This document shows positions 1,643 to 56,934 of a stretch of DNA of 64,000 nucleotides, in pieces. A model generated the notes under the pieces. It made no database searches. It was not told the origin of the DNA and saw only the letters and a list, made by a program, of their open reading frames with translations. This stretch comes from Komagataeibacter oboediens (GTDB lineage: Bacteria; Pseudomonadota; Alphaproteobacteria; Acetobacterales; Acetobacteraceae), in the NCBI RefSeq assembly GCF_003207815.1, contig NZ_NKTX01000003.1, positions 62,001-126,000 on the forward strand, in the 5' to 3' direction. A program made the position numbers and the translations under genes. Positions within the stretch are counted from its first letter, which is position 1. The number at the start of each line of letters is the position of its first letter.

Positions 1643-1728
1643 TGAAAGTTTCCGGCTGCCGCCTTTCTTCAGAAAGGCGGCGTTCCTTAGAAGCTTTCTG
1701 AAAAAAGCTTCACCAGAAACTTTCTTGC
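1643..1728 (-). repeat. Dispersed two-hairpin repeat, copy 1
   Basis: Read on the minus strand, this copy has a GGTGAAGCTTTTTTC hairpin (arms roughly GAAGCTTTTTTC and GAAAGCTTC) followed by a second hairpin with arms GCCGCCTTTC and GAAAGGCGGC. It lies between the convergent 3' ends of zwf and the LTXXQ-type gene. Five related copies occur at 11771, 21236, 38253, 50041 and 56854. The arms end in A/T runs on both strands, so a bidirectional terminator role is likely but inferred. Confidence 0.8.
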
Positions 1729-1829
1729 GACCGGCTCCGTCTGGCTGTTGCGGATCGCCCGGGACTGTCAGGTAAGCCGGATATGGCCTGGCCCCGCCCG
1801 CAACATGCTGTGGGCGGGGCGGGACGCGT

Positions 1830-2363
1830 TTACTGCGCGGGGGCGGCGGTGGTCCCCTGCGCATCGGCAGCCTTGGCCTGCTGTGCGGCGGTGTGTTCGC
1901 TGTCGCCCTCACGGAACAGGGTGTCGGCATGCTTGCGCTGCTTCTTGGACAGGCTGTCATACAGCGATGCGAACGCCGTGTTCAGCGTCTGCATGTCACG
2001 CGCGCGCTCGATCACCAGATCGGCATAGGACTGCATGTTTTCCACCGCGTTCAGGGTGGGCAGCTTGGACCGGCGGTCCTCGATCGCATCATGCAGGCGC
2101 TGCGCGTTGTCGCGCATGTCCTGTGCGAAGGGGGCCCACAGCGCTTCCTGCTTCTTGGTAATGCCCAGCTGGTCATGCAGCGCCTTGATATGGGCTTCCA
2201 CCTGTTCCGGCGCGGGATCGCGCGGGGTGTGGGCCAGTGGCGCGGTCGGGTTGGGCTTGCCTGCTTCTGTCTGGGTACCCGTGGTGGGCTGCGGGTCGGC
2301 GGCCATGGCCATGGCGGGCAGCATCAGCAGGGCAGCGGTGGGTAGGAACCGGCGGAACATCAT
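1830..2363 (-). CDS. Spy/CpxP-like LTXXQ-motif periplasmic protein
   Basis: A small exported helical protein of 177 residues. It starts with a signal peptide (MMFRRFLPTAALLMLPAMA, then an AMAADP-type cleavage site). The mature part has two LTxxQ-type repeats, LGITKKQEALW near residue 68 and LSKKQRKH near residue 140, typical of the Spy/CpxP family of periplasmic chaperones and stress sensors. The C-terminus is Ala/Gln-rich. It lies 60 bp upstream of the 3' end of the Gly-rich exported protein on the same strand, so it follows that gene in transcription. No metal-binding His/Cys cluster is visible. The family call is good; the specific role in acid, metal or envelope stress is unknown. Confidence 0.8.
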   Translation of the reverse strand: MMFRRFLPTAALLMLPAMAMAADPQPTTGTQTEAGKPNPTAPLAHTPRDPAPEQVEAHIKALHDQLGITKKQEALWAPFAQDMRDNAQRLHDAIEDRRSKLPTLNAVENMQSYADLVIERARDMQTLNTAFASLYDSLSKKQRKHADTLFREGDSEHTAAQQAKAADAQGTTAAPAQ

Positions 2364-2423
2364 GTTGTATATTTTCCTTCGCAGGGGTGTCGATATGCGT
2401 GGGATGTGTCAGGGCTGCGGTTA

Positions 2424-2789
2424 TCAGTAACCGCCGCCATAGGGGTAATAGGCCGGCGGCGGCGGGGCCGGCGCGGGGGTGGGATAGTAGGCCGGTGGCG
2501 GTGCCGCAGCGCCGCGTTCGGCCAGCGTGCTGCCCAGCATGGCGCCCACTGCAAGACCGGCCAGGCCACTGCCCACGGCCAGACCCGCGCCGCCGCCACC
2601 ACGGTGGCCGCCATAATAACCGCCACGCGGCGGCGGGGGCGGTCCGCCACGTCCACCGCGGGGACCGCCATGCCACGGCTGGGCCTGCGCAGCCGGCACG
2701 GCCGTTGCCAGTATGCCCAGCGCAAGGCTGGCTGACAGGAGGGAAGCAGTAAGTTTGCGCAGATGCATGGAGTTTGAGAACCTCGACAT
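2424..2789 (-). CDS. Small Gly/Pro-rich exported protein with glycine-zipper segment
   Basis: A 121-residue protein with an N-terminal signal peptide: a Lys-containing n-region, then a hydrophobic LLSASLALGILATAVPAA core and an AQA cleavage site. The mature part has a GGPRGGRGG-type basic Gly/Pro-rich stretch, a short hydrophobic glycine-zipper-like segment (GLAVGSGLAGLAVGAMLGS) and a Tyr/Pro-rich tail with PPPAYYP-type repeats. Such architecture suggests a cell-envelope protein. No enzyme motif is seen. An internal ATG at 2768 (MHLRKL) gives a cleaner signal peptide and may be the real start. It is probably co-transcribed with the LTXXQ protein downstream. Function unknown. Confidence 0.65.
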   Translation of the reverse strand: MSRFSNSMHLRKLTASLLSASLALGILATAVPAAQAQPWHGGPRGGRGGPPPPPRGGYYGGHRGGGGAGLAVGSGLAGLAVGAMLGSTLAERGAAAPPPAYYPTPAPAPPPPAYYPYGGGY

Positions 2790-2855
2790 ATCGTGAAGGC
2801 GGATAACAGGATCATTATGACCAATGTCCGTGTCGAAACAATGGCCGGGTCCGTG

Positions 2856-3500
2856 TCAGGCCACCCAGGGCAATCGCTTTGTCAGGGCGGATAACCGGTG
2901 GCGACGCAATTCGTTGCGCGCCCTGGCATCATTGGTCATGTAATTCAGCTGTATGGTGTGGCGGGGACCGACGTACTGCCGGTGGCCATGCCATGTGTCC
3001 GGCCCGTTGGGGAAGACCAGCAGCGTGCCGTTGACGGGCGGAACCTCGACCGTGAAATCCTCCAGGTCATGGTCGTTGCGCAGCAGTCGCAGGCAGCCTT
3101 CATGCCGTGCCCATGCCGTGTCGTCCCCGGCGTTCAGATACAGCAGGACGGTCACGCGCTTGCTGGCGGAATCGCGGTGGATGCGTCCGTCCTTGGCCCG
3201 CGTGCGTCCACGCAGGGTCAGCATGGTGGGGGCGGTATCCAGATCCAGCGCGAATTTCCGCGCGATCAGGGTCCGCAGCCGTGGTCCCTCCAGTTCCGTC
3301 ACCAGCCGCGCCATAAGCGGCGAAAGCGTCAGCGCCCCGGGCGGGAAGGACCCGCCGGAGCGGATGTCAGGCAGGCTTGCGGCAAGGGCATGCAGGTCAT
3401 CGGGCCTGATGAAATGCGGGACCACCACATGCGCAAATGGTGCGGTGGACACGGGCGCTGCCTCCAGCGCCGCATAGTCGGGGGTGACGGGTTGGATCAT
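2856..3500 (-). CDS. 2OG-Fe(II) oxygenase family protein
   Basis: A 214-residue protein of the prolyl-4-hydroxylase-like 2-oxoglutarate/Fe(II) dioxygenase fold. The Fe ligands are visible: H-x-D in GRIHRDSASK, then a distal His in DTWHGHRQYVG, with the Arg in GPRHTIQLNYM a good candidate for binding the 2OG carboxylate. Strands VTVLLYLN and LLVFPN frame the jelly-roll core. I start it at the ATG at 3500 because AGGAT lies 5 nt upstream. A GTG at 3521 with GGAAG upstream would add seven residues. The substrate cannot be read from sequence. The gene stands with its own short spacers between an exported protein and an AhpD-like gene. Confidence 0.85.
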   Translation of the reverse strand: MIQPVTPDYAALEAAPVSTAPFAHVVVPHFIRPDDLHALAASLPDIRSGGSFPPGALTLSPLMARLVTELEGPRLRTLIARKFALDLDTAPTMLTLRGRTRAKDGRIHRDSASKRVTVLLYLNAGDDTAWARHEGCLRLLRNDHDLEDFTVEVPPVNGTLLVFPNGPDTWHGHRQYVGPRHTIQLNYMTNDARARNELRRHRLSALTKRLPWVA

Positions 3501-3576
3501 GCCATCCTGCAAGCTGGTCACTAAGCGGCTTCCAGATTAGGCCCGGACACGCCCCCCCGCAAGCATGCGTACGGGA

Positions 3577-3915
3577 TCAGGCCGTGACCGTGTCCACCGC
3601 GTCCAGCACCCGGCTGGAATAGACCGTGGCCGCCCCCGCATTCAGCGCCACGGCAACGCCCAGTGCTTCGGCAATTTCCTCTTTCGTGGCCCCGGCCTTC
3701 ACCGCGGCGGTGGAATGGACGGATATGCAGCCGTCGCACCGTGTGGTCACGGCAACCGCCAGCGCGATCAGTTCACGTGTCTTGGCATCCAGCTTTCCGG
3801 TGCGCGCGGCAGCGCCATCCAGCGTCTGGAGTCCCTTGATGGTGTCGGGCGAGAGCGCCGCGAAAGCTTTGATAGAGTCGCCCAGATGGGCGCGGTAGGC
3901 GTTCCAGTCAGTCAT
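3577..3915 (-). CDS. Carboxymuconolactone decarboxylase / AhpD-like protein
   Basis: A 112-residue all-helical AhpD/CMD-family protein. The redox-active CxxC and nearby His are present in TTRCDGCISVHSTAAV (about residues 57-72), preceded by a conserved Glu in the TRELIALAVAV helix. This pattern is that of peroxidase-linked disulfide reductases rather than true carboxymuconolactone decarboxylases. The ATG at 3915 has GGAG 6 nt after a good spacing, better than the GTG one codon upstream. It is divergent from zapE. A role in thiol or peroxide metabolism is likely; the partner is unknown. Confidence 0.85.
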   Translation of the reverse strand: MTDWNAYRAHLGDSIKAFAALSPDTIKGLQTLDGAAARTGKLDAKTRELIALAVAVTTRCDGCISVHSTAAVKAGATKEEIAEALGVAVALNAGAATVYSSRVLDAVDTVTA

Positions 3916-4035
3916 CACAAACTCTCCATTCTGGCTGGTTTCAGTTCACCAGATGGAGAGAACCCCTGTCATGACACAGTTTGGCGAGTTTGCGCCCTTG
4001 ATGGGGTGTTTGTTACGGACTATCGCCGAAATACC

Positions 4036-5238
4036 ATGGATACAGACATAGCCCCCGCCCGCCCGTCCGCTGCGGCGTTGCCCGCAGGTACCGGCCCCCT
4101 CGCCGCCTATGAGGCCCGTGTGGCTTCTGGCCGTCTTGATCGTGACCCGGAACAGGAAAAGGCCGCCCGCCGGCTCGACCGCCTGTGGCGTGAACTACGT
4201 GACTACCACCCGGTGGTCCAGCAGCACGCGCCGCAGGCCTCGGGCTGGCTGGGCGGGCTGAAGGCGCGCCTGGGCCTGTCGGGGCGCCACGCCACCGAGG
4301 CCCCGCGTCCGCGCGGCGTTTACATGGTGGGACAGGTGGGGCGTGGCAAAACCATGCTCATGGACCTGTTCTTCAGCCTCGCCCCCGTGGAACACAAGCG
4401 CCGGGTCCATTTCCACCGCTTCATGCAGGACGTGCACCAGCGCCTGCATGACATGAAGGCGGCCGATCCCGACCTGACGGATCCCATCCCGCCGCTGGCG
4501 CGCCAGATCGCGCAGGAAGCGTGGCTGCTGTGCTTTGATGAATTTCAGGTCAATGACATTGCCGACGCCATGATCCTTGGCCGCCTGTTCGATTACCTGT
4601 TCGCCGATGGCGTGGTGGTGGTCGCGACATCCAACACGAAACCCGAGGACCTGTTCCAGGACCGTCCGGGCGCTGATGCCTTCAAGCCGTTCATCGCCGC
4701 GATTCTCAAGGAAGTGGATACCGTCATCCTCGATTCCCCGCGCGATTACCGCCGGGGCAACGCGCGGGGAATGCAGACATGGATCATCCCCGCCGATGAT
4801 GCGGCGCGCCGGGCGCTCGACTCGATCTTCACCCGGCTGGCCGATGGCGCGCCGGTCGTGCCGGTTACGCTGGACATCATGGGCCGCCGCCTGAAGGTGG
4901 ACCAGGCGGCAGGTCCGGTCGCGCGCTTCAGCTTTGCCGATCTGTGCGGCAGGCCGCTGGGTGCTGGCGATTACCTGGCGCTGGCCACGCGGTTTCCCAA
5001 CCTTGTCCTGGATGGCGTCCCGCGCATGGGGCCGGATAATTTTGACGAGGCCCGGCGCTTCATCGTCCTGATCGACACGCTGTACGAACAGAACGTCAAG
5101 CTGTTCGCCTCCGCCGAGGACAGGCCGGACGCACTGTATGCAAAGGGGCAGGGCGCCACCGCGTTCGAACGCACCGCCTCGCGTCTGGAGGAAATGCAGA
5201 GCGCGGCCTACATGCAGCTGCCGCACCTGAACGCATAG
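4036..5238 (+). CDS. zapE: Cell division protein ZapE (AFG1-like AAA+ ATPase)
   Basis: A 400-residue P-loop ATPase of the AFG1/ZapE family, which in bacteria acts on the Z-ring during division and in mitochondria has a quality-control role. Walker A is GQVGRGKTMLMD near residue 100, Walker B is LLCFDEFQVNDIAD near 165, and a sensor-1-like VVVATSNTKPEDL follows near 195. The C-terminal part has the family pattern ARFSFADLCGRPLGAGDY. The frame is open further upstream, but the ATG at 4036 (MDTDIAPARP) leaves the usual short N-terminal helix (AYEARVASGRLDRDPEQ) seen in the family. Monocistronic as far as seen. Confident. Confidence 0.92.
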   Translation: MDTDIAPARPSAAALPAGTGPLAAYEARVASGRLDRDPEQEKAARRLDRLWRELRDYHPVVQQHAPQASGWLGGLKARLGLSGRHATEAPRPRGVYMVGQVGRGKTMLMDLFFSLAPVEHKRRVHFHRFMQDVHQRLHDMKAADPDLTDPIPPLARQIAQEAWLLCFDEFQVNDIADAMILGRLFDYLFADGVVVVATSNTKPEDLFQDRPGADAFKPFIAAILKEVDTVILDSPRDYRRGNARGMQTWIIPADDAARRALDSIFTRLADGAPVVPVTLDIMGRRLKVDQAAGPVARFSFADLCGRPLGAGDYLALATRFPNLVLDGVPRMGPDNFDEARRFIVLIDTLYEQNVKLFASAEDRPDALYAKGQGATAFERTASRLEEMQSAAYMQLPHLNA

Positions 5239-5587
5239 GAGCGGACAGGGGATGAAAGGGTCACGCCATCGTGACGGTTATGGCGGTGGTGTGACTGGTC
5301 AGGCGGTAGGCAAGCAGGACGGTCTTTGCTTGGGTATGGGCAAGTTCGCATCAGCCGGGACAAAGGCCGCGGATATGGACGTTTTCCGCACGCCGGTCCC
5401 CGCTATCGGAGGACAGGCACGAAAATGTCAGTATGCGCGGCAAGCAGACCTGATCCTGATGAATGATGGCGGCATCCCGGCAAGGGTGCGGCTAGGGTAG
5501 CGATACAAATCGGGCCGGTGAGAATGACATGCCGGATCCGACAATAGCGCGGCCAAAAAAGGCCGCCAGCGAGGAGATGTCTTCAAT
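5239..5587. other. Non-coding leader region upstream of sucA
   Basis: About 350 bases without a convincing gene. It starts with a perfect inverted repeat GTCACGCCATCGTGAC at 5260-5275, right after zapE, which could be an operator or weak terminator stem. The only open frame here (from 5252, 82 codons) has no domain-like composition. The region ends with a good GAGGAG ribosome binding site at about 5571 for sucA. It presumably carries the promoter of the 2-oxoglutarate dehydrogenase operon. Confidence 0.6.
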
Positions 5588-8461
<2,874 letters not shown>

Positions 8462-8488
8462 CCGTCACGGGTTACGCATAAGGGAAAT

Positions 8489-8512
8489 GGGAACGGCGGT
8501 CTGGCCGTTCCC
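8489..8512 (+). promoter_or_regulatory. Intercistronic hairpin between sucA and sucB
   Basis: A perfect 9-bp stem GGGAACGGC/GCCGTTCCC with a 6-nt loop. No T-run follows, so it is not a classical terminator. An mRNA-stability or partial attenuation role between E1 and E2 is a reasonable inference. Confidence 0.55.
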
Positions 8513-8581
8513 CTGAATAACGATAAGGCCGCCCGGACGTGTCCGATGCGCCAGGGCGGCAAAGGGATTGGGAATTAAAAG

Positions 8582-9841
8582 ATGTCTGCCGATATCAAGG
8601 TACCGACACTGGGTGAAAGTGTTACCACAGCAACCGTTGCAAAATGGCTGAAGCATCCCGGTGATGCCGTGAAGGAAGATGACCCGTTGGTGGAACTGGA
8701 AACCGACAAGGTCAGCGTGGAAGTTCCCGCGCCGCAGTCTGGCGTGCTTGGCCCGCTGCTGGTTCCCGAGGGTGAGGAAGTCGAGGTCGGCACCGTGCTG
8801 TCCACGATCGAGGCCGGCAGTGGCGCCGCCCCCAAGCCTGCGGCCGCCCCCGCGCCGAAGAAGGAAGCCGCCCCTGCGGGCGTGCAGGCCCAGCCCGCCG
8901 CCAGCGGCCCGGTTGCCCGCCCGGCAACGCCGCCGTCCGATGTCGCGGCACAGGGTGCCGCAGCCGTGGCTTTCCCGAGCGCGCGCAAGATGATGACCGA
9001 GCAGGGCGTGTCCGCAGCCCAGGTCGGCACCGGCACCGGCAAGGATGGCCGGATCACCAAGGGTGACGTGCAGACGTTCCTGTCGCAGCCGCGTGCAGCC
9101 CAGCCTGCCGCCGCCGCACGCCCGCCCCGTCAGGACGACCCGCGTGAAGAACGCGTGAAGATGACGCGCCTGCGTCGCACCATCGCCCGTCGCCTGAAGG
9201 ATGCGCAGAACACCGCAGCCCTGCTGACCACCTTCAACGAAGTGGACATGTCCGCCGTCAAGCAGATGCGCGCGGAATACAAGGATCTGTTCGTCAAGAA
9301 GCACAACGGCACCAAGCTGGGCTTCATGTCCATCTTCAGCCGTGCGGTGATCGCGGCCCTGCAGGAATTCCCGGCCATCAACGCCGAAATCGACGGCGAT
9401 GACGTGATCTACCGTGAATTCGTGAACCTGGGCATTGCCGTGGGTGGCCCCAACGGGCTGGTCGTGCCCGTAATCCGCGACGCGGACAAGATGAGCTTTG
9501 CCGAAATCGAAAGCACCATTGCGGGCTTCGGGAAGAAGGCACGCGAAGGTACGCTGAAGATCGATGAACTGTCGGGTGGCACGTTCTCGATCACCAATGG
9601 CGGAATCTATGGCTCGCTCATGTCCACGCCCATTATCAACGCGCCGCAGTCGGCCATCCTTGGCATGCATGCCATCCAGGATCGTCCGGTGGCGGTTGAC
9701 GGGCAGGTCGTGATCCGCCCGATGATGTATATCGCCCTGACCTACGATCACCGGATCGTGGATGGCAAGGAAGCGGTCAGCTTCCTTGTGCGGGTCAAGC
9801 AGAACGTGGAAGACCCGCGCCGTCTGCTGCTGCAGGTCTGA
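8582..9841 (+). CDS. sucB: Dihydrolipoamide succinyltransferase (E2 of 2-oxoglutarate dehydrogenase)
   Basis: Core transacylase of the complex, 419 residues. It has one N-terminal lipoyl domain (lipoyl Lys43 in ETDKVSVEV), an Ala/Pro-rich linker, a peripheral-subunit-binding domain around residues 130-165 ([13 protein letters not shown] to DGRITKGDV), a second linker and the catalytic domain. Its active site is [10 protein letters not shown] with H390 and D394-G395. One lipoyl domain and the 419-residue length are typical of SucB rather than pyruvate E2. It sits 120 bp after sucA and 67 bp before lpd. The lipoyl domain is strikingly like the one fused to the neighbouring Lpd. Confidence 0.97.
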
Positions 9842-9908
9842 TGCCTGCCGGGGCCGTGCCATGCGCGGCCCCTACGCGCAACCGCATAGCAAGCAGGACT
9901 GAATAGAC

Positions 9909-11662: not shown

Positions 11663-11703
11663 AAAACCCACCCGGCAGGTCTGCTGCCGGGTGGGTTTTT
11701 TTT
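11663..11703 (+). terminator. Strong rho-independent terminator after lpdA
   Basis: A perfect 16-bp stem (AAAACCCACCCGGCAG / CTGCCGGGTGGGTTTT) with a 5-nt loop, running into TTTT. It begins 17 nt past the stop of lpdA and ends the sucA-sucB-lpdA operon. Confidence 0.95.
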
Positions 11704-11770: not shown

Positions 11771-11857
11771 TAAAAGTTTTTGGTGAAGATTTTTCCAAAA
11801 AGCTTCTGGAAACACCGCCTTTTTTGGAAAAAGGCAGCATCCAGCAACGTCTTTTTA
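11771..11857 (+). repeat. Dispersed two-hairpin repeat, copy 2
   Basis: Carries AAAAGTTTTTGGTGAAG, an imperfect first hairpin (arms near GAAGATTTTTCC and AAAAAGCTTC) and a second with CCGCCTTTTTT and AAAAAGGC. It lies between convergent lpdA and the minus-strand cyclase gene, just after a separate strong terminator and a very A/T-rich 60-bp stretch. The extra terminator shows that termination alone may not explain its presence. Confidence 0.8.
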
Positions 11858-21235: not shown

Positions 21236-21320
21236 ATAAAAGTTTTTGGTAAAATTTCCCCAAAAAGTTTCAGGAAACGCCGCCTTTTGAAGAAGGCAGC
21301 ACCCAAAATTTTTTATCTTC
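21236..21320 (+). repeat. Dispersed two-hairpin repeat, copy 3
   Basis: AAAAGTTTTTGGTAAAATTT, then AAAAAGTTTC, then CCGCCTTTTGAAGAAGGC. It lies at the convergent junction of cbiD and cobM. The first hairpin is decayed (TTTCCCCAAAAAG), while the second is kept. Confidence 0.8.
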
Positions 21321-32722: not shown

Positions 32723-32892
32723 GACGGTCCGTGCCCTTTCGCGGCGGTGCTGCGCGTGGCAGCTGAATGCGGGGTGCACGGTCATGGCGGCGTCACCCGG
32801 CATGGGGCGGGGTGGTCGCCTGTCGCGTGCCGGGCACCCCGCCGGCCATGCGATCGAATTCGGTCCTGTTATGCCCGCCGGCAGGGCGTGGC

Positions 32893-33113
32893 ATGATGGC
32901 AGGTCTCCTGGCTTGTGGCGGAGGGTGCGGCCGCACCCCCGATCCCGGCGGCCTTCCCGGTCCCGTGAAGGGGGCCAGTGGCGTATGCCGGTCCATGTTT
33001 TCATGGACCGTGCCGGGACATCACCACCCACAGTTGCGGGGGCAGCGACGGACTTGCCGGTATGGCGCACCGTCTTCCCTATTCTCCCCCGGAAGGGGGA
33101 ACCATCACCGGCG
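32893..33113 (-). promoter_or_regulatory. Cobalamin riboswitch for the DUF1636-cobW-cobN-cob operon
   Basis: On the minus strand all landmark elements appear in order: CGGTGATGGTTCC at the 5' end, GAATAGGGAAGACGGTG, the core CGTCGCTGCCCCCGCAACTG (33031-33050), CCACTGG, and the B12 box AGCCAGGAGACCTGCC (32899-32914). The spacer to the first gene (32722) contains an inverted repeat GGCGGGGT/ACCCCGCC (32806-32813 with 32836-32843) that may be part of the expression platform. Repression by adenosyl- or other cobalamins is expected. Confidence 0.96.
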
Positions 33114-33174
33114 GATTTAGACGATCGGTCCCGGCACTGTCAAAGGAACCCGGTGCGGGGCGCATGCCATGCGG

Positions 33175-38252: not shown

Positions 38253-38331
38253 CTGAAAGTTTTTGGTGAAGCTTTTTTCAAAAAGCTTCGAAGACCGCTG
38301 TCTTTTGAAAAAGGCAACGCCCGGAAACTCT
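38253..38331 (+). repeat. Dispersed two-hairpin repeat, copy 4
   Basis: The best-preserved copy. GAAAGTTTTTGGTG is followed by a perfect hairpin GAAGCTTTTTTC/AAAAAGCTTC and then a second, weaker hairpin CTGTCTTTTG/AAAAAGGC. It begins 8 nt after the stop of the beta-rich protein, at the convergent junction with thiC. Confidence 0.85.
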
Positions 38332-38376
38332 GGACATTCTTTAATCAAAACATTGTTTTCAGAAATAATTTTCCAA

Positions 38377-38405
38377 ATGCCGCCTTTGTTTTTGAAAGGC
38401 GGCAT
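38377..38405. terminator. Bidirectional stem-loop before thiC 3' end
   Basis: A perfect 11-bp stem ATGCCGCCTTT/AAAGGCGGCAT with loop GTTTTTG. It has the same core as the second hairpin of the dispersed repeat, so it may be a detached half unit. It sits between two convergent genes and could stop transcription from either side. Confidence 0.6.
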
Positions 38406-38531
38406 CTGTTTGATGCTGTCCGGACAGCGTGTCAGCGGAAACTTTGCCTATGGCGTTCGGGCTGCGCGATGGGCCTGCATTCCGGCTTGTTGCAGACCCA
38501 TCGGAATCGGTCCCGCGATTGCCCTGCGGGC

Positions 38532-40621
<2,090 letters not shown>

Positions 40622-47331: not shown

Positions 47332-47333
47332 TC

Positions 47334-48248: not shown

Positions 48249-48288
48249 CCCTGTCAGTTTCCTGACGGTATCCTGCCAGACAGCACGG

Positions 48289-48321
48289 CGGCCCTTTCCT
48301 TATGGGAAGGGCCGTTTTTTT
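48289..48321 (+). terminator. Rho-independent terminator after exbD
   Basis: An 11-bp stem (CGGCCCTTTCC with GGGAAGGGCCG, one T-G wobble) and a TTAT loop, followed by a T7 run, 40 nt past the last exbD. Confidence 0.92.
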
Positions 48322-48686: not shown

Positions 48687-50024
48687 ATGATTGTGAAAAC
48701 AGACCCGACACACCCGGTTGATGAAATGCTGCCTGCGGGCATGCTGTTCGCCTTTGGCCTCCAGCATGCGCTGGTCATGTACGCGGGCACGGTTGCCGTG
48801 CCGCTGGTTTTTGCCGCGGCCATGCACCTGTCATCCGCGCAGACCATCCTGCTGATCAACTGCGGGCTGATGACTTCGGGCATCGCCACGATCATACAGA
48901 GTATCGGGGTATGGAAATTCGGCTCCCGCCTGCCAATCGTGCAGGGGTCGTCCTTTGCCATGCTGGCATCCATGCTGCTGATCGGGCAGATGTACGGCGT
49001 GCCGTCGGTATTTGGCGCGGTCATCGGCGCGGGGCTGGCCATGGTGGTGCTGGCGCCGTTCATGGCGCGGCTCATGCGGTTTTTCCCGCCGGTGGTGATC
49101 GGGTGCCTGATCACCATCATCGGCCTGACGCTGGTGCCGGTGGCGGGGCGGTGGATTGGCGGCGGTACGCCTGGCACACCCGATTTTGGCAGCATCGCAA
49201 ACCTGACCCTGGCGTTCGCCACCATCCTTATTACCGTGGGGGTGCAGGCATGGGGCAGGGGGTTCGTGGCCAATATCAGCGTTCTGATCGGGCTGATTGC
49301 GGGCAGTATCCTCGCCGCGCTGTGCGGCATGGGCCATTATGGCGTGGTTGCCGATGCGCCATGGTTTGCCATCAGCACGCCGTTTGCGTTCGGCATGCCG
49401 GAATTTCATTTCATGCCGATCATGATCATGTTGCTCAGCATGGTTATCATCGTGGCGGAAACGACCGGTAACTGCCTGGCGATTGGCCGCGTGGTCGATG
49501 TGCCGATTACCGATGCCACCATTGCCGGCGCCTTACGGGCCGATGGCCTGTCCACCATGCTGGGCGGGTTGTTCAACAGCTTTCCCTATAATGCCTTTAC
49601 GCAGAATACCGGCCTGATCGCCATAACCGATATCCGCAGCCGTTTTGTCGTGGCGGCGGCAGGGATGGTCATGATCGGGCTGGGACTGTTTCCCAAGCTT
49701 GGCGCGTTGATTGCCGCCCTGCCACCGCCGGTTCTGGGGGGATGTGGTCTGGTCATGTTCGGCATGACCACCATTGGCGGCATACGCGAACTGCTGCATG
49801 TCCGGTTTGAAGGGACACGGAATGGCCTGATTGCGGCTGTTTCCATCGGGCTGGGCGTATTGCCAATGGCGTGCCCGGACCTGTTTACGCATATAAGCGG
49901 GCTGGCGCGGCTGTTACTGGGTAATGGTGTGCTGCTGTGCATCCTGTCGGGCGTGCTGATGAACCTGATCGTAGGGAAAAGCGCGCCGGATGTGGAAAGC
50001 GTGGTGGACGAACGCACGCCATGA
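48687..50024 (+). CDS. NCS2-family purine (xanthine/urate) permease
   Basis: Proton-coupled nucleobase transporter of the xanthine/uric acid branch, 445 residues, 12-14 membrane segments. PVDEMLPAGMLFAFGLQHALVMYAG at the start, LPIVQGSSFAM, and the NCS2 motif region AETTGNCLAIGRVV with GLFNSFPYNAFTQNTGL are diagnostic. The start at 48687 (MIVKTD) has GGAAA upstream. It may import purines for salvage in step with ade elsewhere in the window. It converges on an MFS gene with a repeat between. Confidence 0.9.
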   Translation: MIVKTDPTHPVDEMLPAGMLFAFGLQHALVMYAGTVAVPLVFAAAMHLSSAQTILLINCGLMTSGIATIIQSIGVWKFGSRLPIVQGSSFAMLASMLLIGQMYGVPSVFGAVIGAGLAMVVLAPFMARLMRFFPPVVIGCLITIIGLTLVPVAGRWIGGGTPGTPDFGSIANLTLAFATILITVGVQAWGRGFVANISVLIGLIAGSILAALCGMGHYGVVADAPWFAISTPFAFGMPEFHFMPIMIMLLSMVIIVAETTGNCLAIGRVVDVPITDATIAGALRADGLSTMLGGLFNSFPYNAFTQNTGLIAITDIRSRFVVAAAGMVMIGLGLFPKLGALIAALPPPVLGGCGLVMFGMTTIGGIRELLHVRFEGTRNGLIAAVSIGLGVLPMACPDLFTHISGLARLLLGNGVLLCILSGVLMNLIVGKSAPDVESVVDERTP

Positions 50025-50040
50025 AAGCCTGAGGACCATA

Positions 50041-50122
50041 AAGAAATTTCTGGTGACGCTCTGTCCGGAAAGCTTCAGATAACGCTGTCTTTATCTGGGG
50101 CAGGGCAATATCCGGAACCTTT
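50041..50122 (+). repeat. Dispersed two-hairpin repeat, copy 5 (degenerate)
   Basis: AAGAAATTTCTGGTGACGCT, then GGAAAGCTTCAGATAACGCTG and TCTTTATCTGGGGCAGGGC. The order of blocks matches the other copies, but both stems are decayed. It fills the convergent junction of the purine permease and the MFS transporter. Confidence 0.6.
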
Positions 50123-50146
50123 GCCCGTTCCTGTATCTGTCGTCCT

Positions 50147-51529
50147 TCAGGCGGTGCGGCGGTTCAGCAGGCGCGCGGCGCTGCACAGCATGCCGATAAA
50201 GGCGACAATCGACCCGAAGCCCAGGCAGCTGCGCTCCGCATCATGCGTGATCAGGCCAAAGGCCATGGCCACGAACATGGCCCCGGTGGCCTGCCCGCAC
50301 TGCCGCGCGATCTGCACCATGCCCGACGCGCTGCCTGAACGCCCCGGCGGGGCCGTCACCATCATGATGCGGTTGTTGGGCGGCTGGAAAATCCCGAACC
50401 CCATCCCCGCGATCGTGATGCGCCATGCAATGTCGAACCAGCCCGGATGTGGTGGCAGGTTATAAAGCAGCAGAAACCCCATTGAGGTGATGAACAGTCC
50501 TACCGATGACAGGATGGCGGCCGGAATGCGGTCCGCCAGCCGGCTGATGACGGGGGATACGGCCATGATGCCAACCGGCCACGGTGTCATCAGCAATCCC
50601 ACGATGGACGGGGGATAATGGAACATGGACTGCAGCGTGAACGGGAAGGAGATCATGAACAGGTTGGAGGATACGAAGCCCACGAATCCCACCAGCGTCC
50701 CGGTGCGGAAGGCCGGGATACGTAGCATGTCCACCGGAAACATGGGGTGTTCGCGCCCGCGCTGTCGGCGCACCAGCAGCCAGCCCGCGCCGATCCCGGC
50801 CAGCAGCAGTAAGATGACCTGCGCCATGCCCGCGTGATGCGCCACCGAATCCCCCGCCATGATCAGCGCGCCAAAGGTCAGCACGTTCAGCAGGGCGCTG
50901 ATCCCGTCGAATGTTCCCGCGCTGACAGGCGTGCGCGGCAGCGAAACCAGCGCCAGCACAAGGGCTGTCACCCCCAGCGGAATGTTGATCAGGAACAGCC
51001 ATGGCCATGACGCGACCGTCAGGATGATGGAGGCGACCGTCGGGCCACCCCCTACGCCCAGCGCCACCATCACGCCATTCAGGGCGATGCCGCGACCCAG
51101 TATGGCATGGGGATAGATGAAGCGGATCAGCGCGATGCTGACGCTCATGATACATGCGCCCCCCACGCCCTGCACCGCCCGCGCCAGCGACAGCATGAGC
51201 AGCGAATGGGACAGTGCGCAGAACAGTGACGCCACCGTCAGCAGCGCCAGCCCGATCTGGCACAGCCGCGCAAAACCGATGCGCGAGCCCAGGGCCGCCA
51301 TGGGCAGCAGCGAGACCACGCTGGCCAACTGGTAGGAATTGACGATCCATACCGCCGAAGCCGGGGAAACATGGATGTCCTGCGCGATGGTGGGCAGGGC
51401 CACGTTGGCGATGGCGTAATCCAGCAGCGCCAGCAGTACCGACAGCGCCACGGCGCTGACCGCCCGGACGCGGGCCGCACCATGCAGGCCTTCGCCTTCG
51501 GTCAGGACAGGGGTCGATCGGGGGGGCAT
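50147..51529 (-). CDS. MFS transporter, DHA2 (EmrB/QacA-like) drug exporter family
   Basis: Major facilitator of 460 residues. ALLDYAIANVALPTIAQDI is motif D1 near the N-terminus, ARAVQGVGGACIMSVSIALI follows, and motif C appears as GVMVALGVGGGPTVASIIL, typical of antiporters. The helix count is consistent with 14 membrane segments. Substrate unknown; multidrug or metabolite export is usual. Alone on the minus strand, it converges with the purine permease. Confidence 0.85.
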   Translation of the reverse strand: MPPRSTPVLTEGEGLHGAARVRAVSAVALSVLLALLDYAIANVALPTIAQDIHVSPASAVWIVNSYQLASVVSLLPMAALGSRIGFARLCQIGLALLTVASLFCALSHSLLMLSLARAVQGVGGACIMSVSIALIRFIYPHAILGRGIALNGVMVALGVGGGPTVASIILTVASWPWLFLINIPLGVTALVLALVSLPRTPVSAGTFDGISALLNVLTFGALIMAGDSVAHHAGMAQVILLLLAGIGAGWLLVRRQRGREHPMFPVDMLRIPAFRTGTLVGFVGFVSSNLFMISFPFTLQSMFHYPPSIVGLLMTPWPVGIMAVSPVISRLADRIPAAILSSVGLFITSMGFLLLYNLPPHPGWFDIAWRITIAGMGFGIFQPPNNRIMMVTAPPGRSGSASGMVQIARQCGQATGAMFVAMAFGLITHDAERSCLGFGSIVAFIGMLCSAARLLNRRTA

Positions 51530-51647
51530 GGCAGCGGCTTTTCAGACGGGAAGGAAATTATGGTTTTGATAGTGAAACATTATATGGCCCTGCAGCAGGG
51601 GTATCAATAGTCGCCCATTGCAGGGGGGATGCCGCAGGACAGGTCCG

Positions 51648-52928
51648 TCATCCTTCCGCCAGCAGAGCGCGCTGGCCGATGTCATGGCGGTAGATGCCAT
51701 CGGGCCAGTCAATGACCCTGACCGCACTATATGCGCGGTCACGGGCCTGCTGCAGTGTGTCGCCCGTCGCGCAGACCGCAAGCACGCGCCCGCCCGCGGC
51801 AACCAGTTCGTCCGCTGCATTCCGTTTCGTGCCCGCCTGGAATACATGCACCCCCGGCATGGCTTCGGCGGTCGCGATATCGCGGATCACCCCGCCCGTT
51901 ACCGGCGTGCCGGGATAGCCGCGCGCGGCCATGACCACGCTTACGGAGGACTGGTTGGCAAAACGGATATCTGTCTGATCCAGCTGCCCCTTTGCCACGG
52001 CGGCAAGGGCGGCCAGCAGGTCGCTTTCGAGCCGGATCAGCAGGGCCTGCGCTTCCGGATCCCCAAGGCGGACATTATATTCGATCAGTTGCGGGCCGGT
52101 TGCGGTCAGCATGAGGCCCGCGAAAATGATGCCGGTGAACGGCGTGCCCCGACGCACCATTTCGCGCAGCATGGGCCGTACCAGCAGGTCCAGGGCGGCT
52201 TCCTGCTGTTCACGGTCAAAACCGGTGGGGGGGGAGACCGCGCCCATCCCGCCGGTATTGGGGCCGGTATCGCCATCGCCAATGCGCTTGTGGTCCTGTG
52301 CCGCGCCAATCAGCACGGCGGTTTCCCCCGCGCAGAACGCGAACAGGGATACCTCGTCGCCCATCAGGCAGTCCTCGATTACCACGCTGTGGCCCGCCTG
52401 TCCCAGCGTGCCGTCGGTCATCATGTCGGTAATGGCCTGTTCGGCTTCAGGCACGGTCTGCGCCACCACCACGCCCTTGCCTGCCGCAAGGCCGTCGGCT
52501 TTCACCACCACGGGCGCCCCATGCCGGCGGACATAGTCCAGCGCGGGACCGGCAGCGTCAAAGCGTTCCCATCGCGCGGTGGGGATGCCTGCCGCATCGC
52601 ACACTTCCTTGGTGAAGGTCTTGCTGCCCTCCAGTGCGGCGGCGGCCTGCGTGGGGCCGGCGCAGGGAATGCCCGCCTTCGCGCACGCATCGGCAATACC
52701 TGCCACCAGCGGGGCTTCGGGGCCGGGTATGACCAGGTCGATGCCTTCCTGCCGCGCCAGTGCGATCAGTTCTGGCACGTCATCAGCGCGCACGGCGCAG
52801 TTCGTGCCCAGAACGGCGGTGCCGGGATTGCCCGGCGCAATGAACAGGGCGTCAAGCAATGGCGACCGCGCAATGGCAGCGGCCATGGCATGTTCACGTC
52901 CGCCTGATCCAATCAGCAGCACCCGCAT
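51648..52928 (-). CDS. purD: Phosphoribosylamine-glycine ligase
   Basis: ATP-grasp enzyme of purine synthesis (GAR synthetase), 426 residues. MRVLLIGSGGREHAMA at the N-terminus, GPEAPLVAGIADAC, PVVVKADGLAAGKGVVVA, TGGMGAVSPP and FNVR-like EYNVRLGDPEAQALL are classic. The start at 52928 gives the standard N-terminus. It is divergent from xseA with a 67-bp spacer. Confidence 0.97.
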   Translation of the reverse strand: MRVLLIGSGGREHAMAAAIARSPLLDALFIAPGNPGTAVLGTNCAVRADDVPELIALARQEGIDLVIPGPEAPLVAGIADACAKAGIPCAGPTQAAAALEGSKTFTKEVCDAAGIPTARWERFDAAGPALDYVRRHGAPVVVKADGLAAGKGVVVAQTVPEAEQAITDMMTDGTLGQAGHSVVIEDCLMGDEVSLFAFCAGETAVLIGAAQDHKRIGDGDTGPNTGGMGAVSPPTGFDREQQEAALDLLVRPMLREMVRRGTPFTGIIFAGLMLTATGPQLIEYNVRLGDPEAQALLIRLESDLLAALAAVAKGQLDQTDIRFANQSSVSVVMAARGYPGTPVTGGVIRDIATAEAMPGVHVFQAGTKRNAADELVAAGGRVLAVCATGDTLQQARDRAYSAVRVIDWPDGIYRHDIGQRALLAEG

Positions 52929-52995
52929 TACTCTGTTTCTCCCGTTTTTCATCTCGGCCCTTTCGGGGTGGCCGTCTCTATCATACCTTGCGCGA

Positions 52996-54456
52996 ATGGA
53001 TGAACAGTTTCCCGACTCCGGTCGCACCATGGGCGGCAATACCCCGGAATTTTCGGTTGCCGAGATTTCAGGGGCCATCCGCCGGGTGCTTGAAGGCACA
53101 TTTGGCCGCATTCGCGTGCGTGGCGAAATCACGGAATTCAAGCGCTATCCGTCCGGTCACCTGTATTTCTCGCTCAAGGATGAAGGGGGCAAGCTGTCCT
53201 CCGTCGTATGGCGGGGCACGGTGTCCCGGCTGGGGCTGAAACCCGAAAACGGTGTTGAAGTCATCGCCACGGGCAAGATTTCATCCTACGGCGAACGATC
53301 TTCCTACCAGATGGTGATCGACCGGCTGGAATATGCGGGCGAAGGCGCACTGCTGGCCCGGATTGAACGCCTGCGTCTGCGCCTTGCGGCGGACGGCCTG
53401 TTCGATGCGGAGCGCAAGCGGCCATTGCCCTTCCTGCCGCGCGTGATCGGGGTGGTCACGTCGGCGCAGGGGGCCGTGCTGCATGACATCCGCACCACCA
53501 TTGCCCGCCGGTTTCCCCATCCGGTCCTCGTCTGGCCGGTGCCGGTGCAGGGGGAGGGCGCGGCCGAACGGATTGCGCAGGCGGTTGCGGGATTCGATGC
53601 GACTGAAGGCCATGGCGGCGTGCCGCGTCCCGATGTGCTGATTGTCGCGCGCGGTGGCGGATCGCTTGAGGACCTGATGGCCTTCAATGACGAAGCCGTG
53701 CTCCGCGCGGTGGCGGCATGCCGCATTCCGGTGATTTCTGCCGTGGGGCATGAAACGGATACGACACTGATCGATTTCGTGTCCGACCGCCGGGCACCTA
53801 CGCCCACGGCGGCGGCTGAAATGGCTGTACCTGTACGGGCCGAGCTGGAGGCGGCCCTTGCGCAGCGTGACGCACGCCTGCGTGGTGGCCTTGAGCGTAC
53901 GCTGCAGCTGGCGCGCGCGCGGCTGGACCGGGCGGCGGCGGGGCTGCCTGACCTGCCCGCCGTGGTTGAAAATGCCCGGCGGCGGCTGGATGATCGCGCC
54001 TATCGGCTGGATCTGGCACTGCCGACCCGTATGGAGCAGTTGCGCAGTCGCCTGCGCAACGCATCCGACCGGCTGCCCGCCCCGCAGATGGTCCTTGCCC
54101 TGCGCCGTGCGGATCTTGCACGCATTGACGCGGCTAGCCAGCAGGCCATGGCCGGTTTCCTGCACCGCCGGGTGTCCACGCTGCGCGGCCTGCGCGTGCC
54201 GCCCGCCATTCTGGTGTCACAGCTGCGCGCCAGCACCAGCCGCCTTGCCGGGGCGGGGGGACAGCTGGATTCGCTGTCCCCGCAGGCCGTGCTGGAACGC
54301 GGCTATGTGCTGGTGACCGACAGGGCGGGCCGGCCTCTGGCGCATGCGGCACAGGCCCGGCGGGCGACACAGGTGACCATGACCTTCGCCGATGGCAAGG
54401 TTGTGGCCCGTCCCCTAAGATCGGGGGAAACGGAACAGGGGCATTTGGATCTGTAA
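52996..54456 (+). CDS. xseA: Exodeoxyribonuclease VII large subunit
   Basis: Subunit of the ssDNA exonuclease ExoVII, 486 residues. An N-terminal OB-fold (VRGEITEFKRYPSGHLYFSLKDE) is followed by the catalytic core (VTSAQGAVLHDIRTTIARRFP, VARGGGSLEDLMAFNDEAV, SAVGHETDTTLIDFVSDRRAPTP) and a coiled-coil C-terminus. The frame is open upstream over purD, but the ATG at 52996 (MDEQFP) fits the family. Stop and next start overlap (TAATG). Confidence 0.96.
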   Translation: MDEQFPDSGRTMGGNTPEFSVAEISGAIRRVLEGTFGRIRVRGEITEFKRYPSGHLYFSLKDEGGKLSSVVWRGTVSRLGLKPENGVEVIATGKISSYGERSSYQMVIDRLEYAGEGALLARIERLRLRLAADGLFDAERKRPLPFLPRVIGVVTSAQGAVLHDIRTTIARRFPHPVLVWPVPVQGEGAAERIAQAVAGFDATEGHGGVPRPDVLIVARGGGSLEDLMAFNDEAVLRAVAACRIPVISAVGHETDTTLIDFVSDRRAPTPTAAAEMAVPVRAELEAALAQRDARLRGGLERTLQLARARLDRAAAGLPDLPAVVENARRRLDDRAYRLDLALPTRMEQLRSRLRNASDRLPAPQMVLALRRADLARIDAASQQAMAGFLHRRVSTLRGLRVPPAILVSQLRASTSRLAGAGGQLDSLSPQAVLERGYVLVTDRAGRPLAHAAQARRATQVTMTFADGKVVARPLRSGETEQGHLDL

Positions 54457-54854
54457 TGCATATACACGCACGTAACAGGACACTTTCGCCGTGGTTGTGC
54501 GCTATGGGCGCGGTCGTGCTGCTGGCGGGATGCGCGGGACACGGTGCGCCCCGGACAGCGTCGCGCCCCGCCGTGGCTCCGGCGTCGTCGGGGCATATCC
54601 CCCCGCAGGATTTCGCCCCCGGCCTGACGGGGGAGGAAGGTGCGCCACCACAGGGTGTCGTCCTGACAAATGATCCCTCCGCGCCAGCGGATACGCCCCT
54701 GTGTGGCCATGCCGCGCGGGAGGCGAACGCCATAGGGGCCGCCGTTCACCCCGATATCACCCCCACCGCCAGCAGCTGCGCCGCCAATGCGTGTTTCGAT
54801 GCGCAGACCGGCACCTATATCGCCGCTGACGGCAGCCGCCGGGTCTGCCGCTAG
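54456..54854 (+). CDS. Small predicted lipoprotein
   Basis: A 132-residue protein with an n-region, hydrophobic core and lipobox LLAGCAG (Cys26), so it is probably a lipoprotein. The rest is Ala/Pro-rich and low in structure, with four Cys in the C-terminal half (TPLCGHA, SSCAANACFD, RRVCR) that could form disulfides. No known domain. Translation is coupled to xseA by a 1-nt overlap. Function unknown. Confidence 0.7.
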   Translation: MHIHARNRTLSPWLCAMGAVVLLAGCAGHGAPRTASRPAVAPASSGHIPPQDFAPGLTGEEGAPPQGVVLTNDPSAPADTPLCGHAAREANAIGAAVHPDITPTASSCAANACFDAQTGTYIAADGSRRVCR

Positions 54855-54957
54855 CGGCCCGGCCGCATATGCTGCATGGGTCATATGCCGCGCGTGGGCA
54901 GGCGGAAACCATATTCCGATTGACTTGGTCCGGATGGATGGTTGACCCTCACCTTCC

Positions 54958-55419
54958 ATGAGCCTCCCCCCTTCATCCGGCAGCATAGGTGACCCGCAGG
55001 CCACGGTACACATGTTCCCCCTCAAGCGCATGCTGTCGCTGCGCGAGGCCGCGGAATATGTCGGTATCACGCTGCTGCGGCTGCGTAGCCTGCGTCTTGT
55101 GAACGCAGGCCCCCACGCCGCCATGCGCAGCAAGAACGGGGTGATGTTCCGGATCGAGGATCTGGACGATTATGTGGACGGCCTGTACCGCCGCGCCAAC
55201 ATTTCCCATACCGAACAGGCACGACACCGTAATGAATGGCGCGGCAGGCTGGCCGCCCTGCCAGAAGAGGCACGGGGCGGCATATCCGATTCCTTCATGC
55301 AGATCGTCACCCGTGACGAACTGCTGGAAAAAGGGGCCAACCGGGGGTTCCGTGTCCTGTTCCTTGGCGGGCTGTGCCTGATTTTCCTGTCCCATACGCC
55401 GCTGATCTGGCGGCTGTAG
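54958..55419 (+). CDS. HTH protein with C-terminal membrane helix
   Basis: A 153-residue protein. Residues about 22-75 look like a MerR/excisionase-type winged helix (MLSLREAAEYVGITLLRLRSLR, then SKNGVMFRIEDLDDYVDGL). The middle is charged and helical. The last 25 residues form one membrane helix (GFRVLFLGGLCLIFLSHTPLIW). A DNA-binding-like fold tied to the membrane is unusual. The ribosome binding site is weak; starts at 55012 or 55030 are possible. It may regulate or scaffold; no target can be named. Confidence 0.6.
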   Translation: MSLPPSSGSIGDPQATVHMFPLKRMLSLREAAEYVGITLLRLRSLRLVNAGPHAAMRSKNGVMFRIEDLDDYVDGLYRRANISHTEQARHRNEWRGRLAALPEEARGGISDSFMQIVTRDELLEKGANRGFRVLFLGGLCLIFLSHTPLIWRL

Positions 55420-55523
55420 GGTGATGCGGCGGGCATTTCGGTGAAAATGCGTTTTTTTGCCTGTGCGGGTATGTTCTTTCGACATACGATCCGCTACGCA
55501 GAAACCACGATAGCGGAACAATA

Positions 55524-56264
55524 ATGGATCGGATAATGACAGGTATGCGCAGCAGCACTATGGCCCGGACCGGATACGCGCGGCTGTGTGGCGCACTTTG
55601 TGGGGCGGCACTTGCCCTGACCCCTGTCCTTGCCATGGCGCAGGACGCTGGTGGCGGTCAGCAGCAGGCACCCATACTGCCCATGCCGCCCGTGCCTGAA
55701 TTCAAGCCGCTGCCCGCGGGCACGAAGCCTGCCGCGCCTGTCATCGGCATTTTTAATACCCAGCAGATCATGGCGCAGTCCACCGCCGTGCAGAAACTGC
55801 AGACCGAACTGGGCGCCCGCCGCGAGGCGCTGGTGCGCGACGTGCGCGCCGAGGATGCGCAGCTTCAGGCCGTGCGCCAGTCCATCATCAAGGCAGGCAA
55901 GGCACCCACGCCGGAACAGCAGCAGGAGCTGCAGAAGCGCGTGAACGCCGACCGCACCAAGTTTGGTAACCGTAACCGGATTCTGGAAGAAGACGCGCAG
56001 GTTGCCCTGAACCAGGTGCAGCGTGAAATGCAGCAGATCGTCAGCGCCATCGCTTCCGCGCGCGGCATGACCATGGTGCTGCAGGCTGGCACCGCCGCCC
56101 TGCATGACAACAGTCTGGATATCAGCGATCAGGTCGTGACCTACCTCAATCAGGCGCTGCCGTCGGTGTACCTGCCCGGTCCCACGGAAGACCCTGAGGA
56201 AATCGCCAAGAGCGGCAAATACCCGGTCATGCCGTTCCAGCCCTCTGATGGTGGTGGAGAATAA
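55524..56264 (+). CDS. OmpH/Skp family periplasmic chaperone
   Basis: A 246-residue protein with a signal peptide (LCGALCGAALALTPVLAMAQ) and a Pro-rich linker. An OmpH/Skp core follows: IGIFNTQQIMAQSTAVQKLQTELGARREAL, a long helical hairpin (about 80-185) and a closing VVTYLNQALPSVYLP. Skp-like proteins escort unfolded outer-membrane proteins. The usual bamA and lpx neighbours are absent here. Convergent with ybaK. Confidence 0.85.
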   Translation: MDRIMTGMRSSTMARTGYARLCGALCGAALALTPVLAMAQDAGGGQQQAPILPMPPVPEFKPLPAGTKPAAPVIGIFNTQQIMAQSTAVQKLQTELGARREALVRDVRAEDAQLQAVRQSIIKAGKAPTPEQQQELQKRVNADRTKFGNRNRILEEDAQVALNQVQREMQQIVSAIASARGMTMVLQAGTAALHDNSLDISDQVVTYLNQALPSVYLPGPTEDPEEIAKSGKYPVMPFQPSDGGGE

Positions 56265-56326
56265 TCACCCACGCATGAACCCGTCCCGCAACAGGCCCCT
56301 GCATATGCAGGGGTGAGCGGACCGGA

Positions 56327-56800
56327 TCAGGCTAGCAGGTCGGCTGTAATCGCGTCTGTCGCCGCCACGGCGTCGGCAGGCGACAGCCGGACCAGATAGC
56401 CACGTTTTCCCCCGTTTATGACCACATAAGGCTGTGCCAGCGCGTCTTGCGCCAGTGCTGTCGGCACGCGCCGACGCTGCCCGAACGGGCTGATCCCGCC
56501 CACGCGGAAACCCGTGCTGCGTTCGGCGGTGGGCGGTGGCATCATTTCGGCTGACTTGCCGCCAAAGGCTGCAGCGACTTTCTTCATGCTCAGCGTCGCC
56601 GCGACCGGCACCACGACACAGGCCGGGCGTGCGTCCACCATGACCATCAGTGTCTTGAACACGCGTGCGGGGTCTTCCCCGATCGATGCGGCGGCATGGT
56701 TGCCAGTCTGTCCCGCGCCGGGATCATAGTCATATTCAATGACGGTGAAGGCCACGCCAGCTTTTTCCAATGCCGCCGTGGCGGGTGTTGCCCTGCTCAT
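56327..56800 (-). CDS. ybaK: Cys-tRNA(Pro) deacylase, YbaK/EbsC family
   Basis: Edits mischarged Cys-tRNA(Pro), 157 residues. RVFKTLMVMVDARPACVVVPV, LSMKKVAAAFGGKSAEMM, GFRVGGISPFGQRRRVPT and the C-terminal GKRGYLVRLSPAD are typical. The start at 56800 (MSRATPATAA) has AAGGGAAG upstream. It carries GGISPFG, the conserved substrate-site loop. Confident. Confidence 0.93.
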   Translation of the reverse strand: MSRATPATAALEKAGVAFTVIEYDYDPGAGQTGNHAAASIGEDPARVFKTLMVMVDARPACVVVPVAATLSMKKVAAAFGGKSAEMMPPPTAERSTGFRVGGISPFGQRRRVPTALAQDALAQPYVVINGGKRGYLVRLSPADAVAATDAITADLLA

Positions 56801-56853
56801 GCTTCCCTTCTTTATCCTGAAGACCATTTCAGAAGACGTTACTGGTCATAAAG

Positions 56854-56934
56854 AATAAAATTTTTTGGTGAAGCTTTTTTCAAAAAGCTCCGCGACCGCC
56901 ACCTTCTGTGAAAAAAGATGGCACTCAAAAACGT
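56854..56934 (+). repeat. Dispersed two-hairpin repeat, copy 6
   Basis: AAAATTTTTTGGTG, a perfect GAAGCTTTTTTC/AAAAAGCTC hairpin and a second, weaker one (ACCGCCACCTTC with GAAAAAAGATGG). The flanking genes (ybaK, SDR) run in the same direction, the only copy not at a convergent junction. It is placed between the SDR 3' end and the ybaK start. Confidence 0.8.

Follow-up and report, generated by a model that had tools for sequence, protein, structure and literature searches.

The insertion sequences (IS) of the IS1031 group have TNA as their target. For the same group, the available part of PMC2516522 gives a three-nucleotide insertion site as a feature. Among short intergenic repeats, SPRITE of Streptococcus pneumoniae is terminator-like, with 15 copies at convergent junctions and 15 upstream of a gene in the table of PMC3049150, and the accessible portion of that paper suggests that these repeats are co-opted terminators. 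The accessible pages of PMC3733652 list the Acetobacteraceae among the families missing CGTC repeats. The subject of the present analysis is an intergenic repeat from a member of this family, Komagataeibacter oboediens, found in a stretch of 64,000 nucleotides (assembly GCF_003207815.1, contig NZ_NKTX01000003.1, positions 62,001 to 126,000), hereafter the window, in which an initial annotation had noticed six copies of a two-hairpin repeat. These repeats are very probably old copies of a 162-bp non-autonomous IS5-type transposon, that is, a miniature inverted-repeat transposable element (MITE). The reading developed below, to which we assign a probability of about 0.65, is that this MITE enters at gene 3′ ends and that its core is retained there as a two-sided 3′-end structure of mRNA. 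In the literature searched, from which subscription papers were mostly absent, no account of this repeat from acetic acid bacteria was found.

Ends, target duplication and IS5-type relatives

All six copies, with the block order initially described for them, can be read directly from the window sequence. The 84-bp block that they share corresponds to the interior of a 162-bp element with 15-bp inverted ends (GAGACTGTTTGAAAA). These longer inverted ends were first seen in the flanks of the best-kept copies, in other species, and the 84-bp block itself was then given up as the mobile unit. Inverted ends lying exactly 162 bp apart occur at five loci, which represent four distinct places, and every one of these has TAA/TAA or TTA/TTA as its flanks; two end pairs with a shorter spacing, of 130 and 151 bp, are without a duplication. 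Among 33 full-length pairs, defined by at most four mismatches per end and taken from loci fetched by that end, most of them with TWA (TTA or TAA) in the pattern and one mismatch allowed, identical 3-bp flanks are present in 25 (TTA in 14, TAA in nine, TGA and ATA in one each), TWA accounting for 23 and TNA for 24 of the 25 duplications. The full-length element, at 150–164 bp, is too short for a transposase gene. The combined pattern TWA+GAGACTGTTTGAAAA, with at most one mismatch, is found in 19 of 19 genomes of the genus, the reversed control giving 0 in all 19. Matches to the end with TWA number one in the window's genome versus 78 in a relative, G005. The full-length copies of G005 often share one core score (27 of 33 letters in the full-length-pair table), perhaps as the result of a recent burst of a single variant.

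A putative source of the transposase is present within the genus. One genome holds an 883-bp IS that agrees with the MITE ends at 13 and 14 of 15 bases and encodes a 274-aa transposase of the IS5 family (NF033580, 228 bits; PF01609, PF13340). A relative IS of 897 bp is flanked by TAA/TAA and matches 12 of 15 bases at each end, and a broken IS5-type element (L348) starts with a perfect copy of the MITE end. We infer that the MITE would be moved by the transposase of an IS5-family element of the genus whose ends are almost identical to its own. The window block is assigned to the interior of an IS5-type MITE because of the inverted ends, the 3-bp duplication and the IS5 relative with similar ends, and the mobility of the element is well supported. 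Of the natures proposed initially, "MITE-like" was right and can now be made precise: 162 bp, 15-bp inverted ends, a TWA target duplication and an IS5-type relative with similar ends.

Distribution among genomes, gene junctions and stop codons

A genome scan with a covariance model and a tabulation of gene orientation, both proposed with the first description, revealed further copies far beyond the six and a strongly non-random placement in which convergent junctions are favoured. A 34-base block, with at most three mismatches, occurs 34 times in the 3.78-Mb genome versus 0 times for the reversed control, and the covariance model yields at least 147 matches at E≤1 in the whole genome, 131 of these at E<0.001, both counts being lower bounds as 150 of 1735 candidates were scored. 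At least 35 matches are present in each of 19 genomes of the genus, including the window's own, when up to 113 candidates are scored in each; outside the genus, one of five genomes of the same family has matches (seven), and none of 16 from other families. A wider draw with stricter filters (at most 22 scored) finds a match in 29 of 200 genomes of the family and in 16 of 102 genera. An exact 30-mer recovers at least 120 stretches from the species collection, and the 80 listed belong to Komagataeibacter, Novacetimonas, Gluconacetobacter, Acetobacter or Gluconobacter. Six Komagataeibacter/Novacetimonas plasmid records also hold matches; two plasmid copies with public annotation lie at one codirectional and one convergent junction. 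Long MITE copies (L375, L376) sit on plasmids of Novacetimonas hansenii and Komagataeibacter nataicola that are typed conjugative, which offers a possible route between genera. A phage origin was rejected, no match being present in 50,697 phage records.

The gene context was quantified in 760 kb of the window's genome, using our own hexamer-based gene caller, in two versions, in place of an annotation. Under the stricter calls, the repeat is present at 34 of 97 convergent junctions, at 6 of 449 codirectional and at 0 of 98 divergent ones (convergent versus rest, Fisher p 8e-25; 40 copies of at least 40 bits), and no copy lies inside a called gene. This is the excess at convergent junctions near stops that would be looked for in a SPRITE-like repeat. 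The looser version gives 34/103, 6/460 and 0/103. Between the two, the copy at 56854 moves from convergent to codirectional and one other copy moves the opposite way; the looser caller had made 56854 convergent wrongly, through an open reading frame of 40 aa, and the stricter one upholds the five convergent junctions and one codirectional junction (56854) first reported for the window. The main counts omit matches below 40 bits, which make up 12 of the 52 loci of the window's genome, as well as the antisense echoes that such palindromes produce; with the weaker matches included, the looser calls give 42 convergent, 10 codirectional and 0 divergent copies. In the syntenic blocks of 13 other genomes, which are orthologous to each other and hence not independent, 51 of 90 convergent, 14 of 416 codirectional and 0 of 91 divergent junctions are filled. 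The copies classed in these blocks (68 of 70, two at block edges being dropped) divide into 54 convergent, 14 codirectional and 0 divergent. All six codirectional copies of the window's genome read against the genes (p 0.03); given a split of nine to five in the other genomes, this sense bias is only a hint.

In 8 of the 25 full-length copies with a target duplication, the duplicated triplet is the in-frame stop codon of a flanking gene (TAA in seven, TGA in one), with the inverted end directly after it; two of the eight represent the same gene in two genomes. Given this duplication, the gene is expected to have had the same end before the insertion. Insertion into a TAA or TGA stop with duplication of the triplet leaves the protein unchanged and restores the stop. 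Of all TWA sites in the spacers of the other-species blocks, 7.7% are TAA stops, compared with 7 of 23 TWA duplications (p 0.001), or 6 of 22 when the shared gene is counted once (p 0.005). G005 contributes 3 stop-codon copies among its 14, and the other genomes 5 among their 11. In the window, copy 1 keeps the same pattern, with an end remnant right after a TGA (Table 1), as does one further copy of the window's genome, in which a remnant matching 13 of 15 bases follows the stop codon immediately.

Four window junctions, traced through 19 genomes, have the element in the same sense, in the opposite sense, twice, eroded or absent. More broadly, 52 copies (of 76 queried, those with a comparable block locus) were set against syntenic blocks in 517 non-independent comparisons, with 176 in the same sense, 104 inverted and 237 without the element; the last number is an upper bound, as it includes overlapping anchors and places without a core-like match. 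One match cut by the end of a stretch (L344/L324) was dropped. Occupied and empty orthologous sites are both found, the empty ones being known at junction level, without a base-for-base match to the target triplet. At the orthologues of junction 11771 (L267–L285), the sense is opposite to that in the window's genome in 9 of 12 block loci, which may reflect either repeated insertion or inversion in place. At one place orthologous to 38253 (L250/L324), a full-length MITE with a TTA duplication shares a convergent junction with a less complete copy. These two copies indicate that the same junction can be hit more than once.

The features of the window are collected in Table 1. The scores were obtained with filters off, with E from 4e-22 to 3e-10; all six copies are among the 31 sequences from which the model was built, so that the genome scan, and not these scores, is the independent test. 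The strong terminator initially noticed ahead of the copy at 11771 is indeed present and G+C-rich, and it is visible at this junction in 10 of 10 other genomes displayed (of 18 others) and in the nearest relative. The coexistence of a separate terminator supports, at this junction, the earlier statement that the repeat is not simply a terminator. A permissive Rfam scan of four copies gave only matches below the gathering score.

Table 1. Copies of the repeat core and other features located in the window
Feature	Position	Strand	Score (bits)	Remarks
Core copy 1	1641..1725	-	95.8	Best preserved in the window; convergent, genes end at 1610 (+) and 1830 (-); RNA fold z -7.3
Terminal-inverted-repeat remnant of copy 1 (AAGATTTTTTGAAAA, 12/15)	1611..1625	+		Directly after TGA stop 1608-1610
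Core copy 2	11771..11855	+	78.6	Convergent junction
Separate G+C-rich intrinsic terminator of the left gene, outside the element	11663..11703	+		Seen in the sequence and at the same junction elsewhere
Core copy 3	21237..21317	+	66.5	Convergent junction (21236); in two species the genes are 21 and 24 bp apart with nothing between
Core copy 4	38254..38335	+	80.5	Convergent junction
Weak second match at the junction of copy 4	38362..38447	-	30.5	Possible old copy or plain GCCGCC/GGCGGC hairpin
Core copy 5	50041..50126	+	50.0	Most degenerate; convergent junction
Core copy 6	56856..56939	+	73.6	Between two codirectional minus-strand genes, element in opposite sense
Cobalamin riboswitch	32881..33121	-	96.8	Sole Rfam match at gathering score in the window

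Fold, retention and possible role of the core

RNAalifold, applied to 31 copies of the window's genome (one of the 32 first copies, L008, with a divergent 3′ half, was left out of this alignment, A2), predicts unprompted a three-way junction composed of an outer stem, hairpin A and hairpin B. The outer stem, AAAGTTTTTGG/CCAAAAACTTT, had been omitted from the initial description of the two hairpins. In the hand-written structure, 89.4% of the pair cells are standard pairs, a value reached by 4 of 500 shuffles. Cells changed on both sides number 26, 16 of them in hairpin B, where shuffling gives 13.7 on average in total, and the score for covariation reaches 0.176 versus 0.153 for shuffled alignments; neither value is reached by any of the 500 shuffles. 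Single copies of the window fold unevenly, with z in the + sense ranging from −7.3 (1641) to −0.8 (11771), and three (11771, 21237 and 56856) fold better on the opposite strand. Wobble pairs, used as a test of strand, do not clearly favour either one.

In the window's genome, the ends of the MITE are lost and the core is kept. Identity to the MITE consensus is 84% for the core of 39 copies, and 88% in the best 18, while the arms of the same 39 copies reach 56 and 54% versus 51 and 44% for nearby control sequence. This residual excess of the arms is significant (p 4e-4 and 2e-5, for 40 copies), and end remnants are found in 11 of 80 flanks versus 1 of 80 controls; the arm signal favours the descent of the core copies from the long form over a short mobile form. 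Eight full-length copies that were checked have arms of 78–97% and cores of 85–97%. Between orthologous copies (94 distinct pairs, not independent), 11.6% of paired sites differ compared with 20.5% of unpaired ones, and double changes at paired sites amount to 62 versus 33.5 expected, with the pair kept in 33. Over 159 orthologous pairs, core identity is 85.2% versus 80.9% in the adjoining 58 bp.

These observations can be assembled into the following scheme. Insertions into genes and promoters would be lost and those at 3′ ends would be harmless, giving the convergent and stop-codon bias of the full-length copies. After insertion, the ends would decay and be deleted, and the palindromic core would be kept at gene 3′ ends, chiefly between convergent genes. 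Being a near-palindrome, it could form stem-loops on both strands, so that one copy might serve two converging messages, and a stable 3′ stem-loop on both mRNAs might block 3′ exonucleases, aid termination, or both. A role as bidirectional terminator or 3′ protector, as suggested initially, is plausible in view of the junction bias seen also in related genomes, the core outliving the ends and the constraint on paired sites. The core probably shapes the 3′ ends of both convergent messages, and its retention for a 3′-end function appears slightly the better assumption. The intrinsic-terminator layout, a G+C-rich stem with a U tract directly after it, is absent from the consensus, in which neither hairpin A nor hairpin B is followed by a U tract. 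Because the stem beside the T-rich flank is A+T-rich and separate terminators coexist, a 3′-end barrier (an exonuclease stop, or an end point after Rho termination) is favoured, on sequence grounds, over a canonical terminator. A more far-reaching version can be offered tentatively: the transposon may spread via stop codons, its TNA target allowing entry into TAA and TGA with the protein unchanged, and its core may now be the usual shared 3′-end structure of convergent genes across the genus, disappearing from individual junctions and returning to them in one orientation or the other.

Several results speak against this picture. As regards the transposon, 8 of the 33 full-length pairs are without matching flanks, 14 of the 25 copies with a duplication come from the single genome G005, and of 30 IS5-type loci examined only 4 show three mismatches or fewer at each end, one of these four being flanked by TAA/TAA; the best-matching IS itself lacks a perfect duplication (TAA/TTA). 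Among the classed full-length copies, those at convergent junctions number 9 of 14 in G005, compared with 3 of 8 in the other genomes. As regards the retained core, the copies were found via the core, so the loss of arms is partly ascertained, and at junction 1643 the core, judged by eye, has diverged more than the rest of the spacer from the nearest relative. Two of five covariation measures beat all 500 shuffles; pairs changed on both sides and further pair types are reached by 23 and 30 of 500. The pair is kept as G.U in 172 of 457 one-sided changes, approximately as from transitions alone (our own estimate, uncomputed); as G.U replacements are not clearly in excess, selection at the RNA level is not separated from palindrome repair at the DNA level. 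The outer stem is A+T-rich, unlike a canonical terminator stem. A home-made terminator scan, weak and confounded by masking, finds a terminator at 13 of 68 ends when the element is masked and at 25 of 68 when it is not, at 43 of 126 ends lacking an element and at 18 of 194 shuffled ones; it was not relied on.

The first alternative is that of a neutral MITE, inserting broadly, whose bias marks the places where it is harmless and whose core conservation stems from ascertainment or concerted repair of the palindrome, without any function. It can draw on the frequency of orthologous places without the element (the upper bound of 237 in 517), on the coexistence of canonical terminators and on the lack of a clear excess of G.U changes, and a neutral explanation of convergent bias has been given for the pneumococcal repeats in the accessible part of PMC3049150. 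Under neutrality, codirectional spacers downstream of operons should fill too, yet 6 of 449 are filled versus 34 of 97 convergent ones; moreover, within the same copies the core is preserved much better than the arms, and paired sites change about half as fast as unpaired ones. We regard this explanation as doubtful.

It is unlikely that targeting alone is responsible, with a transposase preferring 3′ ends (stop codons, or AT-rich or supercoiled convergent spacers) and no later selection. Such a preference would agree with the full-length copies, which already favour stop codons (8 of 25) and convergent junctions (12 of 22, three of the 25 being dropped at contig edges, versus 28% of TWA sites; p 0.009). 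The core copies are nevertheless more biased, with 34 of 40 (p 0.014) and 54 of 68 (p 0.029) convergent, although full-length and core copies come from different genomes, and the survival of the core beyond its arms is left unexplained.

A role at the DNA level, with the palindrome forming a cruciform between converging transcription units and recruiting a nucleoid or topology protein, is improbable. Covariation and a near-symmetric palindrome fit DNA as well as RNA, and the complete absence of divergent copies fits sites of positive supercoiling; the stop-codon placement and the single sense of the codirectional copies (6 of 6) point instead to transcripts, the latter weakly, given 9 and 5 in the other genomes. 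Finally, a REP/REPIN element (REP, repetitive extragenic palindromic) moved by a RAYT transposase can practically be set aside: despite an inverted hairpin pair in spacers and the preference for unidirectional and convergent spacers reported for REPs in the accessible part of PMC3733652, the Y1 transposase domain PF01797 occurs in 0 of 19 genomes of the genus versus 5 of 14 control genomes, which rules out a resident Y1 (RAYT) mover for the genomes sampled, and the repeat has the inverted ends and 3-bp target duplication of a DDE element, leaving the initial label "REP-like" unsupported. The GTAG/CGTC tag beside the hairpin is absent from the consensus, where GGTG precedes hairpin A and, on the other strand, GGGTG precedes hairpin B.

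Significance and comparison with known systems

Outside model species, the ends of convergent bacterial genes and the origin of their end structures are poorly known. Here a single mobile family is found, in one genome, at roughly one in three of the convergent junctions sampled, and in the syntenic blocks of 13 others its share exceeds one half. Because species differ in which junctions carry the element, the consequences of acquiring a 3′-end structure become testable through natural junctions with and without it. By entering a stop codon and duplicating it, a transposon can avoid damage in a simple manner. Bacteria used industrially for cellulose and vinegar are among the hosts, and the element matters for the choice of terminators in their engineering.

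Among the closest known elements are those of the IS5 family, IS1031 group, with their derived MITEs, which share the 3-bp target, the DDE transposase with DUF4096 and, in this genus, an IS of about 0.9 kb with similar ends; the element described here differs in being non-autonomous, 162 bp long and provided with an internal three-way-junction core. Insertion in stop codons is shared with the MIRU of mycobacteria, which differ in having tandem units linked to translational coupling inside operons, not at convergent ends. The nearest precedent overall is SPRITE, likewise a short repeat with a convergent bias near 3′ ends; its sequence, host and fold are different and its copies fewer, and the available text of PMC3049150 mentions neither a partner IS nor insertion in stop codons. 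REP, BIME and REPIN elements with RAYT, as far as the accessible part of PMC3733652 describes them, resemble the present repeat in their spacer hairpins, mostly downstream of genes, and G-T pairing is noted there for REPs; the element here has DDE-type ends and neither the GTAG/CGTC tag nor the Y1 transposase. ERIC, RUP, Correia/NEMIS and CIR are likewise mobile palindromes of small size, and several of them form RNA folds and can affect neighbouring mRNAs. According to the available part of PMC2229807, these four groups have other sequences, mostly TA at their ends, and other hosts. What sets the present element apart from these precedents is the share of convergent junctions filled, the turnover in two orientations across species, the landing in stop codons and the copies that survive as the core alone.

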